Source: Halorubellus sp. JP-L1 (GTDB lineage Archaea; Halobacteriota; Halobacteria; Halobacteriales; Natrialbaceae). Taken from it: a stretch of 64,000 bases of DNA. The notes below the pieces were generated by a model. That model did not search any database. It worked only from the letters and a program-made list of their open reading frames with translations, and had not been told where the DNA came from. The stretch is taken from NCBI RefSeq assembly GCF_011440375.1, contig NZ_JAAOIR010000001.1, forward strand, positions 62,001-126,000, read 5' to 3'. A program made the position numbers and the translations under genes. Positions 17,284 through 23,710 of this stretch are shown one piece after another; position 1 is the first letter of the stretch, and every line of letters starts with the position of its first letter.

Positions 17284-17631
17284 TCAGTCCATCTGTTCCT
17301 GTATCTCGTTCTTCGCAGCGGACCGATCCTCGGTCGTCAGGAGGGGCGCGTCGCCGGAGAACTCGATGGCGAACTCGTCGAGCGTCCGCCGGTAGACGTT
17401 CGTCCGACGCCCCTCGTCCGAGAGCTGGCGGCCCTCGCACTGGAGCAACCCGGCGGACTCCAGTTCCTCGATGCGCCGGTAGCACGTCGCGATCGGGACG
17501 CCGAGTTCGTCCGCGAGGTCCTGGGCGGACGTCGGCGTGCGGGCCGCGCAGAGGATCTCGGCGCTGTACTTGCTCCCGAGCGCTGAGAGGACGTTGGCCG
17601 CGACGTCTCCCGACCGAGCACTCCCACTCAT
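17284..17631 (-). CDS. winged-helix (ArsR-like) transcriptional regulator
   Basis: A 115-residue protein with one winged-helix DNA-binding domain: SKYSAEILCAARTPTSAQDL, recognition helix PIATCYRRIEELESAGL, then a wing around GRRTNVYRR. The C-terminal 35 residues are acidic and could serve in dimerisation. The gene is divergent from the taxis operon, and a motif shared with the cheY promoter lies 16 nt upstream of its start, so control of taxis genes and of itself is a reasonable inference. The ATG at 17631 is preferred to an upstream in-frame ATG at 17697, which would include that motif in the coding sequence. Confidence 0.8.
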   Translation of the reverse strand: MSGSARSGDVAANVLSALGSKYSAEILCAARTPTSAQDLADELGVPIATCYRRIEELESAGLLQCEGRQLSDEGRRTNVYRRTLDEFAIEFSGDAPLLTTEDRSAAKNEIQEQMD

Positions 17632-17646
17632 GTACCCGTCGTTTAC

Positions 17647-17664
17647 GATTATCACGTTTGAAAC
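17647..17664. promoter_or_regulatory. candidate operator, copy 1 (regulator/cheW divergent region)
   Basis: The sequence GATTATCACGTTTGAAAC matches GATTATCGCGTTTGATAA before cheY over its first 15 bases except one A/G change. It is 16 nt upstream of the winged-helix gene start, where the TATA element of that leaderless-type gene would lie, so bound protein would block that promoter. It is 139 nt from the cheW start. Regulatory function is inferred from the repetition, the placement and the AT-rich palindromic core. Confidence 0.5.
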
Positions 17665-17767
17665 TTGTGGCTGGCGAAGAGATACCGCCCGCGACACGAC
17701 GATAGCTTCGGCGTCGTCCGCTGGTGGTGGCCGCTTGCTCTCGGACGCCGACCGTTCGGGGGTCAGG

Positions 17768-17775
17768 TTTTTATC
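17768..17775 (+). promoter_or_regulatory. TATA-like element of the che operon
   Basis: TTTTTATC stands out in the GC-rich spacer and lies 28 nt upstream of the cheW ATG. This is the spacing expected for a haloarchaeal TATA box feeding a leaderless or nearly leaderless transcript. The transcript would run into cheY and the rest of the operon. Confidence 0.5.
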
Positions 17776-17802
17776 GATGGCTACGGATTCTCGAACACGA
17801 GT

Positions 17803-18405
17803 ATGTCCGCCGACCTCCCCGACGAGTTACAGGACGTCGAAGTCTCGTCGCCGTCCGACGACGAGACGAGAGAGTCCGACACGGACCGCGGAGACGGCGA
17901 CGGCGACCCCGACGAGTTCGAGGACTTCGTCGTCTTCGCCGTCGGCGACCGACGGCTCGCGGTGTCCGTCGACGCCGTACGGAACATCGTCACGGTCGGC
18001 GCGACAACGCGCGTCCCGCGCGCCGCGAGCGCCATCGACGGGATCATGGACCTCCGCGGGGAGATCACCGCGATCATCGACGCCCGGTCGCACTTCCCGA
18101 CGCGAGCCGCCGAGCCCGCGACGAGCGACCAGCGCATCATCGTCTTCGACATGCCCCAGGGGCGACAGTCCGCGGGGATCCGCGTCGACGCGGTCGAGGG
18201 CGTGGAGCTGTTCCCGCTGAAGTACGTGACGCCGAGCGAGACGGTCGACGACGAGGCCGCCGACCACCCGCTCGTCGCCGCTCTCTTGCATCGCGTGGAG
18301 AACGGCGAGAAGACCGACCCGGTCGGACTCGTCGACGTCGAGGGGATCGTCGAGGCGTCCGGTCCGGTCGGCCAGTCCGACGACGCGCCGTCGAACGTGT
18401 CATAG
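17803..18405 (+). CDS. cheW: chemotaxis adaptor CheW
   Basis: The coupling protein that links receptor tips to CheA in the cytoplasmic signalling array. The 200-residue protein has an acidic N-terminal tail (residues 1-40) before the CheW beta-barrel domain. The domain starts at DFVVFAVGDRRLAVSVDAVRN and continues with MDLRGEITAIIDAR, IIVFDMPQ and a final GLVDVEGI. The tail is longer than usual. It is the first gene of the operon and is followed by a 145-nt gap that holds a second promoter region before cheY. Confidence 0.93.
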   Translation: MSADLPDELQDVEVSSPSDDETRESDTDRGDGDGDPDEFEDFVVFAVGDRRLAVSVDAVRNIVTVGATTRVPRAASAIDGIMDLRGEITAIIDARSHFPTRAAEPATSDQRIIVFDMPQGRQSAGIRVDAVEGVELFPLKYVTPSETVDDEAADHPLVAALLHRVENGEKTDPVGLVDVEGIVEASGPVGQSDDAPSNVS

Positions 18406-18475
18406 TCGCGTCGCGACTCGCATCGCAAAGGAGACGAGGACGCCCGAGAGCGGACAGTAGGAGCCACCTACCGGA

Positions 18476-18512
18476 GATTATCGCGTTTGATAACCGGGCA
18501 ATAGCATTTATG
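18476..18512. promoter_or_regulatory. cheY promoter region with candidate operator, copy 2
   Basis: GATTATCGCGTTTGATAAC (18476-18494) repeats the motif found beside the winged-helix regulator gene. Here it contains an inverted repeat, TTATC (18478-18482) and GATAA (18489-18493). A TATA-like ATTTATG (18506-18512) follows about 40 nt upstream of the cheY ATG. The operator thus lies just upstream of the core promoter, where a bound protein could repress or activate. An internal promoter would let cheY to cheR be expressed apart from cheW. Confidence 0.5.
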
Positions 18513-18550: not shown

Positions 18551-18913
18551 ATGTCGACAGGGGTGCTCATCGTGGACGACTCTCATTTTATGCGGAATCT
18601 CCTCAGACAGATTCTGGAGGACGATTACGAGATACTGGGAGAGGCGTCCAACGGGGCCGAAGCGGTGAAGTTGTACAAGGAACAGGACCCGGACATCGTC
18701 ATGATGGACATCGTGATGCCGAAGTGTAACGGCATCAAGGCGACAGCCGCGATAAAGAAACTCGATCCGAACTCGCGGGTCATCATGTGCACGTCCGTCG
18801 GCCAGCGCGAGAAGATGAAACTCGCCGTCAAGGCGGGCGCCGACGGGTACGTCACGAAGCCGTTCGAGGAACCCAGCGTCAGGAAGGCGTTGAAGGACGT
18901 CGTGCCTGCATGA
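18551..18913 (+). CDS. cheY: response regulator CheY
   Basis: A single receiver domain of 120 residues that carries the phosphoryl group from CheA to the archaellum switch adaptors. The acidic pair Asp9/Asp10 (LIVDDSHFMRN), the phosphoacceptor Asp53 (IVMMDIVMP), Thr81 (MCTS) and Lys103 (VTKPF) are all in place. There is no output domain. Its stop overlaps the cheB start by 4 nt (ATGA), indicating coupled translation. CheF, the usual archaeal partner linking CheY to the motor, is not in this window. Confidence 0.96.
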   Translation: MSTGVLIVDDSHFMRNLLRQILEDDYEILGEASNGAEAVKLYKEQDPDIVMMDIVMPKCNGIKATAAIKKLDPNSRVIMCTSVGQREKMKLAVKAGADGYVTKPFEEPSVRKALKDVVPA

Positions 18914-20040
18914 CGAGCGTGCTGGTCGTCGACGATTCGCAGTTCATGCGCACGGTCATCGGGAATGTGGTCGCGGACCACGGGTACCGGGTCATGAGCG
19001 CCAGCGACGGCCAGGAAGCCATCGAGATGGTGCACGATCACGACCCGGACGTCGTCACGATGGACGTGGAGATGCCCGGGATGGACGGCATCGAGGCGGT
19101 GTCGCGCATCATGGCGTCGAAGCCGACGCCGATCCTGATGTTGTCCGCGCACACGGAGACGGGCGCGGAGGCGACGCTCGACGCGCTCGCGCGCGGCGCC
19201 GTCGACTTCCTCCCGAAACCCGGCGGGGAGGTGACGCGGGACCTGAAGTCCCTCGGCGACCGTATCGTCGAGAAGATCGACGCGGTCGCGGGCGCGGACC
19301 TGGCGTCGATTACGCCGGCGACGCCCGCGACCAAAGCGACTGCTGGGACGCCGACAGCAGCGTCGGCCGGCGCTGAGAACGACGACTCGCGATCGGCGTC
19401 GTCAGCCGGCGACCGACCAGCACCGGAGCCCGACCGAGCGTTCGTCGAGCACCCCACGATAGTGATCGGGGCGTCGACGGGCGGCCCGAAGATCCTCGAG
19501 GGCGTCCTGCGCGCGCTCCCGGTGACGCTCGATCCGAAGGTGCTGGTCGTCCAGCACATGCCCGCGAGTTTCACGAACCGGCTCGCGGCGCGACTCGACA
19601 CGCTCCTGCCGTTCTCCGTCACCGAGGCGTCGGACGGCCAGCGCGTCGGCGACGGCGACGTGGTGGTCGCGAAGGGCGACTTTCACCTCGAGGTGGCGTC
19701 GAACGTCGCCGGAAACCTTCGCGTTCGCCTGACGGAGCGCGAGCGCGAGCACGGCGTCCGGCCGGCGATCGACGTGACGATGCGGACGGCCGCGGACGTC
19801 GTCTCCGATCCACTCGTCGGCGTCGCGCTGACGGGCATGGGGAAGGACGGCGCGGCCGGGATCGAGGCCATCAAACGAGCAGGTGGGGCGACGATCGCTC
19901 AGGACGAGGCGTCCAGTCCGGTGTTCGGGATCCCGCAGCAAGCGATCGCGACCGGGTGCGTCGATCGCGTCTGCGCTGCGGACGACGTCCCCGGCGCCAT
20001 CTGTGACGCGTTCGCGCAGGAGGCTCCGACCCATGGATGA
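18910..20040 (+). CDS. cheB: chemotaxis protein-glutamate methylesterase CheB
   Basis: It removes methyl groups from, and deamidates, receptors, and is activated by phosphorylation. The 376-residue protein has an N-terminal receiver domain (residues 1-115; phosphoacceptor Asp52 in VVTMDVEMP), an Ala/Thr/Ser-rich linker of about 50 residues, and a C-terminal esterase domain. The catalytic triad is visible as Ser in IGASTGGP, His in VVQHMPASF and Asp in GMGKDGAAG. It starts inside the cheY stop and ends 8 nt inside cheA, so translation is coupled on both sides. Confidence 0.96.
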   Translation: MTSVLVVDDSQFMRTVIGNVVADHGYRVMSASDGQEAIEMVHDHDPDVVTMDVEMPGMDGIEAVSRIMASKPTPILMLSAHTETGAEATLDALARGAVDFLPKPGGEVTRDLKSLGDRIVEKIDAVAGADLASITPATPATKATAGTPTAASAGAENDDSRSASSAGDRPAPEPDRAFVEHPTIVIGASTGGPKILEGVLRALPVTLDPKVLVVQHMPASFTNRLAARLDTLLPFSVTEASDGQRVGDGDVVVAKGDFHLEVASNVAGNLRVRLTEREREHGVRPAIDVTMRTAADVVSDPLVGVALTGMGKDGAAGIEAIKRAGGATIAQDEASSPVFGIPQQAIATGCVDRVCAADDVPGAICDAFAQEAPTHG

Positions 20041-23000
20041 GTACGTACGCGACTTCGTGCAGGAGGGCGAAGAGAACGTCACCGAGCTGAACAACGCGCT
20101 GCTGGAGCTGGAGCGCGAACCGGGTGACGAGGAGGCGATGGACCGCATCTTCCGCATGGCGCACACGCTGAAGGGGAATGCGGGCGCGATGGGGTTCGAC
20201 GAGGCCAGCGACCTGGCACACGCCATCGAGGACTTGCTGGACGCGGTCCGGTCGGGCCAGATGGCGGTGTCCGCGGACCTGATGGACGACGTGTTCGCGG
20301 CCGTCGACGAGTTCGAGTCGATGCTCGACGACGTGCGCGCGCACGGTGAGATTCGAACGGATCCGAGCGACACGATCGAGCGCCTGCGGGCGGTCGAGGC
20401 GGACGCGACGGGTGCGCCATCGATCACGGAACCGTCGGGCGGCGATCTCGACGACGCGGTCCGCGAGGCGGACGCGCTCGACGAGGCGGACCAGACGTTG
20501 TACCACGTCCGGCTCTCGATCGTCCGCGACGACGACGTGAACAACGCCGCGCTCGTCGTGGACGCGCTCGAGGACGCGTTCGACTTGCTCGGGACGACGC
20601 CGTCCCGGGACGTGGTGGACGCGGACGACGCGTCGGGCCGCATCGACGCGGTGTTCGGGTCGGCGGTGACGCCGTCGGCGATCGAGGCGGCGCTAGAGCC
20701 CGTCGGCGCGGTCGACAACTGGATCATCTCCGACGTCACCGACCGCTACAACGCCGTCGACGCCGCGGAGGACGCTGACGCCGTCGACGCCGCCGATGCT
20801 GCGGCGGCCGGGGACGACGGCGGCGCGATTCCGGACGACCCCGCCGCGGAGATCGACGAGGACGTCGCCCAGGACATGTCCGTCGACGAACTCCTCGGCG
20901 AGTTCGACGAGTACGACGACCTGGACGCGCTCGTCGAGGAGATGGACGACGTGTCCGGGTTCGACGACCTCGGCGAGGCCGGGTCGTTCGAGGACCTCGA
21001 CCTCGGCGACGACCTGGACCCGGCGGACGAACCCGCCGCCGACCCGCTCGGCGGCGAGGACGACCTCGACCTCGCCGGTGACGACGGGACGAACCTCGAC
21101 GGCGAGGACGAACTCGACTTCGCGGGCGACGACGACCTCGACCTCGCGGGCGACGACGACCTGGATCTCGGCGACGGCGCCGACGCCGGGGCGGACGACG
21201 CCGACGAGGACGAGCAAGTCGAGGACGCCGCGGAGACGTTCGCCGAACTCAAACAGGAGGTCGACCCGGTCGGGTTCGACGAACTTCAGGACGAGCTCGA
21301 CGAACTCGAGTTCGACGAGTACAGCGACGAGGAGGAGGTCGGGTTCGACGAACTCCTCGGCGACGACTTCGAGGAGGGCGACGACGACTTCTTCGGCGGC
21401 GACGCCGAGATCGGGGACGACGACCTCGAAGACATCCTCGTCGACGACGTCACCGGGTTCGACGAAGCCGACGACGCGGACGCTGCCGAAGCGAACGCGG
21501 ACGCTACCGAAGTCGAAGCGAACGCGGACGCTACCGAAGTCGAAGCGAACGCGGACGCTACCGAAGTCGAAGCGAACGCGGACGCTACCGAAGTCGAAGC
21601 GAACGCGGACGCTACCGAAGTCGAAGCGAACGCGGACGTAGCGGACGTGGAGGCCGAGACGGTCGACGCCGACGCAGCGGACGTAGAGGCCGACGCACCG
21701 AGCGTCGACGACGACGTCGCTGGAGACGCGGACGACGGTGCCGTCGCAGACGCCAGTGACGCGCTCGACGAAGCGCAGACGGCCGACGCGACCGAAGCCG
21801 TCGAAGCCGGCGCGTCCGACGAGGACGAGCCGGAGCTGGAGTCCGCAGACGGGTTCGAGAGCGCGCCGGACGTCGACGACTTCGACGATCCGACGACCGC
21901 CGACACCGACGCCGACGCGGGTGGGTTCGGCGACGACTTCGGCGACGACGAGTTCGACCTCGACGCCGCCGACCCGGACGCCGGCACGTCCCTCGACGAC
22001 GTCGACGACGCGTTCGCGGACGCCGACGATACGCTGTCGAGCGCGACCGGCGATGACGACCTCTCAAGTGACGTCGACGCGGACGACCTCGGCAGCGAGT
22101 TCGACGCGGACGGCCTCGACGCGGACGGCTTCGACGACGACCCCGATCTCGGGGACGACGACCTCGACCTCGGGGCTAGCGACTCCGAAATCGAAGCCGC
22201 GGCTCGGGACGCCGACGACGCGACGCCCGAGACCGACCCGACCGCCGGCCCGCTCGCGGGCGCAGACGAGGAGGACCTCGATAGCGTCGAAGTCGGCGAG
22301 TTCGAACTCGACGACCCCGACGCGGACGCCGGGACCGCCGGTGCGGACGTCGAGACCGGTGACTTCGGGACGGACGCCGGCGGGTTCGACGACGGCGTCG
22401 ACGCCGGCGTCGAGTACGGCGACGTCGACGCTGGCGGGTTCGACGACGCGCCCGACGACGCGGGTGGCGACGCTGCCGACGCGCCCGAAGGCGAGATGGA
22501 CCCCGACGAAGCGCGGGCGCTCGTCGACGCGACGCTCCCGCGCGGCGGCGACGACGACGGCGACGGCGACGTGCAGAGCGTTCGCGTCGACGTCGACCAG
22601 GTCGACCGCCTGCTGAACCTCGTCGAGGGACTCGTCACGAACCGCGTCCGGTTGCGTCGCTCCGTCGAGGAGGGCGCGAGCGCCGCGACGCTCGACGACG
22701 ACCTCGACGAACTCGAGGACATCACGGGCGAACTCCAGGACACCGTGATGGACATCCGGCTCGTCCCCCTGAAGATGGTCGCGAATAACCTGCCGCGGGT
22801 CGTCCGCGACGTCTCGCGCGAACAGGGCAAGAGCGTCGACTTCGAGATGGAGGGCGAGGACGTCGAGATGGACCGCACCATCCTCGACGAGATCAGCGAC
22901 CCGCTCGTGCACCTCGTGCGGAACGCCGTCGACCACGGCATCGAATCGCCCGAGGAACGCGAGGAATTGGAGAAACCGGACGCGGGAACCGTGCGGCTCG

Positions 23001-23710
23001 AAGCGCGTCGGGCGCGGGATCGCGTCGTCGTGGAAGTCAGCGACGACGGCCGCGGCCTCGACCCGGACGTCCTCCGCGACGAAGCCGTCGAGGAGGGCAT
23101 CCTCGATCGCGAGGAGGCGGACGCGATGACGGACGACGAGGCGCGCGAGCTCGTGTTCCATCCGGGGCTGTCGACGGCGCCGGAAGTGACGGACGTCAGC
23201 GGTCGTGGGGTGGGGATGGACGTCGTCCGGTCGACGGTCGAAGACCTCGACGGCGAGGTCGAGATCGAGAGCGAACTCGGCGAGGGCACCACGATACGGC
23301 TCGTGCTTCCGGTGTCGGTCGCGATCGACGACGTCCTGTTCGTGGAGTGCGGCGACGAGGAGTTCGGCGTCCCGACGAAGGTCGTTCGGGACATCGGCTC
23401 GGCGGCGGCGGTGGAACAGGTCGGCGACCGCGAGGTCGTTCGAACCGACGACGGGGACGAGACCCCGCTCGTCCGACTCGGTGACGCGCTCGAATCGCCG
23501 GGCAGCGCCCGGGCGGACGGCGGCGGCATGCTCCTGCACGTCCGCGGGGACGTCAGGGACGTGGCGCTGCACTGCGACCGCGTTCAGGGCCAACAGGAAG
23601 TCGTCGTGAAGCCGTACGACGACGTCCTCGGTGGGATTCCAGGGCTCTCGGGCGCGACGGTCCTCGGCGAGGGCGAGGTCGTGAACATCCTCGACGTGAA
23701 AACGCTATGA
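20033..23710 (+). CDS. cheA: chemotaxis histidine kinase CheA, with giant acidic linker
   Basis: The taxis kinase, 1225 residues, roughly twice the usual archaeal CheA. The HPt domain (1-105) has phosphoacceptor His44 (RMAHTLKGNAGAMGF). A P2-like domain spans about 150-240. Residues about 245-845 are an Asp/Glu/Ala/Gly-rich linker without hydrophobic cores, carrying five perfect copies of EANADATEV at 486-530. The dimerisation helices start near 851 (VDQVDRLLNLVEGLV). The ATPase follows (N box LVHLVRNAVDHGIE near 958, then VSDDGRGLD and GRGVGMDVV), and a CheW-like domain covers about 1085-1225. All catalytic motifs are present. The unbroken frame and normal flanks argue against a sequencing artefact. 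It overlaps cheB by 8 nt. Confidence 0.95.
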   Translation: MDEYVRDFVQEGEENVTELNNALLELEREPGDEEAMDRIFRMAHTLKGNAGAMGFDEASDLAHAIEDLLDAVRSGQMAVSADLMDDVFAAVDEFESMLDDVRAHGEIRTDPSDTIERLRAVEADATGAPSITEPSGGDLDDAVREADALDEADQTLYHVRLSIVRDDDVNNAALVVDALEDAFDLLGTTPSRDVVDADDASGRIDAVFGSAVTPSAIEAALEPVGAVDNWIISDVTDRYNAVDAAEDADAVDAADAAAAGDDGGAIPDDPAAEIDEDVAQDMSVDELLGEFDEYDDLDALVEEMDDVSGFDDLGEAGSFEDLDLGDDLDPADEPAADPLGGEDDLDLAGDDGTNLDGEDELDFAGDDDLDLAGDDDLDLGDGADAGADDADEDEQVEDAAETFAELKQEVDPVGFDELQDELDELEFDEYSDEEEVGFDELLGDDFEEGDDDFFGGDAEIGDDDLEDILVDDVTGFDEADDADAAEANADATEVEANADATEVEANADATEVEANADATEVEANADATEVEANADVADVEAETVDADAADVEADAPSVDDDVAGDADDGAVADASDALDEAQTADATEAVEAGASDEDEPELESADGFESAPDVDDFDDPTTADTDADAGGFGDDFGDDEFDLDAADPDAGTSLDDVDDAFADADDTLSSATGDDDLSSDVDADDLGSEFDADGLDADGFDDDPDLGDDDLDLGASDSEIEAAARDADDATPETDPTAGPLAGADEEDLDSVEVGEFELDDPDADAGTAGADVETGDFGTDAGGFDDGVDAGVEYGDVDAGGFDDAPDDAGGDAADAPEGEMDPDEARALVDATLPRGGDDDGDGDVQSVRVDVDQVDRLLNLVEGLVTNRVRLRRSVEEGASAATLDDDLDELEDITGELQDTVMDIRLVPLKMVANNLPRVVRDVSREQGKSVDFEMEGEDVEMDRTILDEISDPLVHLVRNAVDHGIESPEEREELEKPDAGTVRLEARRARDRVVVEVSDDGRGLDPDVLRDEAVEEGILDREEADAMTDDEARELVFHPGLSTAPEVTDVSGRGVGMDVVRSTVEDLDGEVEIESELGEGTTIRLVLPVSVAIDDVLFVECGDEEFGVPTKVVRDIGSAAAVEQVGDREVVRTDDGDETPLVRLGDALESPGSARADGGGMLLHVRGDVRDVALHCDRVQGQQEVVVKPYDDVLGGIPGLSGATVLGEGEVVNILDVKTL
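21488..21637 (+). repeat. 27-bp perfect tandem repeat inside cheA
   Basis: Five consecutive identical 27-bp units (21488-21514, 21515-21541, 21542-21568, 21569-21595, 21596-21622) are followed by 15 bases of a sixth. Each unit encodes the nine residues EANADATEV. Because 27 is a multiple of three, gain or loss of a unit keeps the cheA frame. Identity at every base, including wobble positions, points to recent slippage or unequal exchange. Confidence 0.95.

Follow-up and report, generated by a model that had tools for sequence, protein, structure and literature searches.

Predicted CsmR operators at the csmR and cheY promoters of Halorubellus sp. JP-L1

Introduction

The euryarchaeal archaellum regulator EarA resembles the system proposed here in being a winged-helix regulator of a motility locus that is bound upstream of the promoter; we know of no haloarchaeon that carries it. 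In terms of fold, the closest described proteins are two archaeal ArsR-type regulators, Phr of Pyrococcus furiosus (2P4W) and PH1932 (1ULY/2CWE). Both differ from the protein studied here in that they are longer (about 190-200 aa), have other binding sites and respond to other stimuli, and their identity to it is about 20-24%. Phr represses its own gene by promoter blocking, which offers a possible parallel for the site found before the regulator gene of this study.

CsmR (HVO_1209) of Haloferax volcanii, a winged-helix regulator of 13 kDa, was described in June 2026 and was classed as a member of the Lrp/AsnC family with similarity to Phr (PMC13286277). ChIP-seq of CsmR yielded the motif TATCA(N4)TGATA in 50 of 65 peaks, adjoining BRE/TATA, and its targets included archaellum (arl) and chemotaxis (che) promoters; the authors read the position of the dyad as activating (PMC13286277). 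Deletion of csmR raised che and arl transcripts and abolished motility (PMC13286277). The same paper places Haloferax csmR in the context of arlA1, arlA2 and cirA (KaiC), states that csmR always co-occurs with archaellins and describes a stable csmR transcript, while autoregulation is unmentioned (PMC13286277).

Here we have analysed a window of 64,000 nt of the Halorubellus sp. JP-L1 genome in which a winged-helix gene, a cheW-like gene and cheY follow one another (Table 1). The comparison with Haloferax revealed the same recognition helix, the same dyad, the same placement of this dyad next to BRE/TATA at cheY and, as predicted by motif, chemotaxis targets. Unlike in Haloferax, csmR adjoins cheW/cheY and not archaellins, a conserved self-site lies before csmR while archaellin promoters carry no dyad, and in this family csmR tracks cheY independently of arlH.

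Results

The original prediction had pointed to a 15-mer, GATTATC[AG]CGTTTGA, present at 17647 and 18476. Both coordinates were correct, and no further exact copy was found in the 3.76 Mb genome, where the closest other matches have 2 mismatches. The first copy lies at the promoter of the winged-helix gene, as proposed, and the second does contain an inverted repeat, TTATCGCGTTTGATAA, 13 bp before the TTTATG of cheY. The 15-mer itself did not stand as the unit. Judged by the promoters of relatives, what is conserved instead is a 16-bp dyad, TTATCR-N4-TGATAA, whose central four bases vary. Indeed, the csmR and cheY sites of Halorubellus salinus differ in these four bases (GTTTCAACAGTGATAA versus TTATCGCGAATGATAA), so that the identity of the two 15-mers over CGTTT is partly coincidence; common to both sites are the spaced dyad and the strong half TGATAA. 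The dyad was derived before it was compared with the published CsmR motif.

Table 1. Positions of the genes, sites and paralog loci considered in this study (window coordinates unless a locus is given)
Feature	Position	Strand	Evidence or remarks
csmR ortholog P0001, 115-aa winged-helix regulator	17284..17631	-	Family orthologs; Pfam HTH_20; tree with Haloferax CsmR
15-mer copy 1, GATTATCACGTTTGA	17647..17661	+	16-30 bp before the ATG of the winged-helix gene (minus strand, 17631)
CsmR-type dyad of csmR promoter (predicted), GTTTCA-AACG-TGATAA on the csmR strand	17649..17664	-	18-33 nt before ATG
cheW-like gene	17803..18405	+	Own promoter without dyad; Pfam CheW; window scan
15-mer copy 2, GATTATCGCGTTTGA	18476..18490	+	cheY upstream spacer
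CsmR-type dyad of cheY promoter (predicted), TTATCG-CGTT-TGATAA, TTATCGCGTTTGATAA	18478..18493	+	Kept in 30/30 relatives
TATA-like box TTTATG	18507..18512	+	13 bp 3′ of dyad; gap invariant in 30 relatives
cheY	18551..18913	+	NCBIfam CheY_Halo equivalog, 202 bits (cut-off 200)
cheB	18910..20040	+	Putative; overlaps cheY stop (ATGA); ORF positions and sequence
cheA	about 20033 to 23710		Downstream of cheB; ORF positions and sequence
Transducer gene	L248:4308-7580 (G000:C1:54.3 kb, outside the window)		In-register CsmR dyad
pilB3-type gene	L247:5171-9043 (G000:C1:157-161 kb, outside the window)		CsmR dyad upstream
Paralog loci	L291-L298		Genomes G033, G118, G038, G011, G020, G036, G039, G037

A chance match, or a recent local duplication that produced both copies, would fit with the distance of 829 bp between them and with a CGTT spacer identity that the sister species, Halorubellus salinus, does not share. 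However, base composition predicts 0.001 copies of the 15-mer per genome, and both sites are kept before the orthologous csmR and cheY genes, persisting at these promoters across 29 genera and often far apart. In many family genomes csmR and cheY are 38-211 kb from each other or lie on separate contigs, which excludes a local duplication and indicates a shared trans-acting factor. We consider an origin by chance or duplication to be refuted by these conservation data, its probability being negligible.

At cheY, 20 of the 30 relatives examined have a dyad perfect to TTATCA-N4-TGATAA, six show one departure and four show two. The 13-bp gap between the dyad and TTTAT is constant in all of them, and the central four bases are variable. 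When the genome was scanned for the dyad in register with a TATA element, the top match was the cheY site itself (0 mismatches). As to the genes downstream, the CheA sequence includes, near 21.5 kb, a long acidic linker in which VEANADATE is repeated in tandem.

The dyad before csmR is weaker. Most related csmR genes present a degenerate version, GATTCA-N4-TGATAA, at about -33..-18 of the start codon, preceded by a likewise conserved AACCAYAA. Of about 60 related csmR genes compared, most retain the TGATAA half together with the N4 spacing. A search for AAGATTCAATNNTGATAAT allowing ≤2 mismatches gives about one match per genome, in nearly all cases directly before csmR, and 106 of the 125 family genomes have a match. 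The self-site is absent from the region upstream of Haloferax csmR, which, like the stable csmR transcript described there, speaks against the proposal. Three Haloarcula-type csmR loci (L209, L212 and L213) show another upstream dyad, GTATCA-N4-CGATAG, with TTTTATA or CTTTATT close behind it; in that lineage, then, the self-site seems altered in form and position. Natronorubrum bangense carries two csmR genes, one on a plasmid and one on the chromosome (L165/L168), with identical promoters including the self-site.

We also considered that the self-site might serve cheW. This was rejected, since in Halorubellus salinus (L006/L139), where an inserted gene separates csmR from cheW, the site has remained next to csmR; cheW retains its own TATA without a dyad. 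The inserted gene encodes a membrane protein resembling a UbiA-type prenyltransferase.

If the csmR mRNA is leaderless or has a short leader, the self-dyad sits at the position expected for TATA/BRE, which suggests self-repression of csmR. This position would also suit an explanation in which the csmR copy is a core-promoter element (BRE/TATA or a start-site element) and CsmR has a site at cheY alone. In the self-site the left half, GATTCA, differs from TTATCA in a consistent way, so that part of its conservation may reflect the core promoter, and the left part AACCACAAGATTCA resembles AACCAACACATTGA upstream of Haloferax csmR, which has no TGATAA half. Nevertheless, the right half TGATAA and the spacing of four bases, preserved as noted above, agree with the CsmR dyad, the divergent csmR of a genome without cheY (L193 in G090) has lost the self-site, and the palindromes found before the paralogs' own genes (see below) sit well clear of the start. 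Thus, we regard the core-promoter explanation as unlikely and favour the self-site as a second CsmR operator.

To place the regulator, closely related Haloferax species stood in for HVO_1209 itself. P0001 shares about 50% identity overall with the Haloferax csmR homolog (52-53% in the best tblastn segment), while the csmR of Halorubellus salinus is 85% identical to that of the window. All 40 orthologs share the recognition helix PIATCYRRI without change. In the phylogenetic tree, P0001 falls in the same supported clade as Haloferax CsmR and the paralogs split off with support 100/99; we assign P0001 as a CsmR ortholog. In Haloferax prahovense, the csmR homolog is followed by two archaellins and faced by a KaiC gene, and TATCAATCTTGATA and TATCAAGGATGATA are found upstream of arlA1 and cheY, respectively.

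The family label given to CsmR was also examined. Pfam HTH_20 scored above cut-off for P0001 and matched all 40 orthologs. The AsnC-type HTH model matched eight of the 40 orthologs, with P0001 below cut-off, no family with the AsnC ligand-binding (RAM) domain matched any of the 40, and none of the ArsR-type NCBIfam models was above cut-off for P0001. The best folds to the predicted P0001 model were Phr, PH1932, AbfR2, CzrA and SmtB (Foldseek; closest E 9e-5), and the single PDB sequence-profile match was 1ULY (PH1932; E 0.003), thereby reproducing the Phr similarity stated in the CsmR paper. With the RAM domain missing from P0001 and the ArsR-type Phr and PH1932 as the nearest folds, the Lrp/AsnC label is not supported by these tests; by its HTH match and predicted fold, P0001 is an ArsR/Phr-like winged-helix protein.

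The dyad alone did not define a regulon in this genome. Scanning with ≤2 mismatches returned 14 places, compared to 18 for the reversed control, and a regulon prediction from the dyad alone was dropped. Scanning with ≤1 mismatch without the TATA register returned 37 places against 25, only mildly above the control. With the dyad and TATA register combined, two further promoters emerged. A transducer (Htr) gene with HAMP and MCP domains carries the in-register dyad TTTTCATCGGTGATAA, 13 bp and TTTATA (1 mismatch); one genome of genus g9 has a transducer site as well. The promoter of pilB3, encoding a pilus ATPase, has an in-register dyad with 3 mismatches, and four genomes of genus g12 (Natrialba-like) have the pilB3 site with a perfect dyad. 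The pilB3 open frame is 1290 aa long and extends nearly 500 aa past the PilB3_C match, perhaps owing to an intein or a fusion. A weaker in-register match with 3 mismatches (C2:141123) is followed by no plausible gene start. The scan of the window revealed no further dyad site at the cheW-like gene. Archaellum promoters had been expected to carry the motif; in this genome, the search of the archaellin and arl loci found no in-register dyad. The 29 archaellin loci of the family showed no such CsmR dyad either, five of them having a different palindrome.

We then compared the distribution of csmR, cheY and arlH in 125 genomes of one GTDB family, comprising 29 genera, calling csmR present at E < 1e-30 and cheY at E < 1e-60 (a cheY match spanning residues 1-87 alone, in G042, was scored present). 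Both csmR and cheY were found in 112 genomes and neither in 11, leaving two discordant genomes: one with a divergent csmR alone (G090) and one, 66% complete, with cheY alone (G116). This co-occurrence gives a Fisher p = 8e-14, uncorrected for phylogeny, and the absences are confined to two genera plus one further genome. The distribution of arlH, present in 82 of the 125 genomes, does not track csmR: it is present in 10 of the 11 genomes that have neither csmR nor cheY, and missing from about 40 genomes that have the two. The published statement that csmR is always found with archaellins fails in this 125-genome set. These distributions suggest that in this family CsmR is tied to chemotaxis and not to the swimming filament itself.

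Seven family genomes carry a CsmR paralog (about 40-47% identity) beside archaellins, and a more distant one is found in an eighth (G020). The recognition helix reads PVTTSYRRV in seven of the eight. Archaellin promoters of the paralog genomes contain TTYYCA-N4-TGAAAA, placed in the same register upstream of TTTAATA (TTTAAGT in one). A TTTTCA-N4-TGAAAA-like palindrome lies 68-80 bp before the paralog start in seven genomes, scoring 9-12 of 12, when composition-matched random sequence reaches 10 in 0.3%; G020 has the archaellin-promoter palindrome and no self-site at the paralog. A changed helix together with a changed palindrome, at both its own gene and its target, is what would be expected if the sites are read by these proteins.

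Many haloarchaeal regulators bind AT-rich dyads. A different transcription factor might thus read both dyads of the window, csmR being merely one target alongside cheY, the more so as family genomes encode further related winged-helix proteins and CsmR binding in this lineage is deduced from sequence. On the other hand, the motif recovered by ChIP-seq of Haloferax CsmR is the same dyad (PMC13286277), the recognition helix is unchanged between Haloferax CsmR and the window ortholog, and in the paralogs an altered helix is accompanied by an altered palindrome, both before the paralog gene itself and at the targets. We therefore find the intervention of another factor quite improbable. As P0001 is a CsmR ortholog with an identical helix and the dyad is that of the published motif, it is very probable that both sites are bound by the adjacent winged-helix protein, in agreement with the original prediction.

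Discussion

Our data argue strongly that both 15-mers are operators of the adjacent CsmR ortholog, which would set cheY-cheB-cheA expression and, most likely, keep its own production in check. The sites, their conservation, their spacing and the orthology of the regulator can be read directly in the genomes compared. What we infer is binding in this organism, dimerisation and whether CsmR activates or represses each promoter. In the proposed mechanism, CsmR would bind TTATCR-N4-TGATAA, presumably as a dimer. At cheY, where the dyad is directly upstream of BRE/TATA, bound CsmR would help or hinder TFB/TBP loading and so set the expression of the cheY-cheB-cheA operon, with either sign. At its own promoter, CsmR bound to the weaker dyad would most likely restrict the expression of csmR.

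In its essentials, this mechanism is already known from Haloferax. To the CsmR paper, the present comparison adds the predicted and conserved self-site, the cheY-linked phylogenetic profile, the candidate sites at pilB3 and at a transducer gene, and the paralog with a shifted palindrome. CsmR has only just been named, in one species, and the deep conservation of its putative operators traces CsmR independently in a second large clade and adds probable self-control. Across many genomes the regulator tracks chemotaxis over the archaellum, which conflicts with the published co-occurrence with archaellins.

CsmR and the archaellin-linked paralog may constitute a duplicated pair of shifted specificity, one devoted to chemotaxis and the other to archaellins, with parallel self-control, the Haloferax regulator of arl and che being the arrangement of one lineage; we lean slightly towards this reading. 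The paralog with its shifted palindrome provides a clean natural test of specificity and of the splitting of a regulon after duplication. If true, the two halves of motility would be under separately evolving, parallel self-controlled switches.
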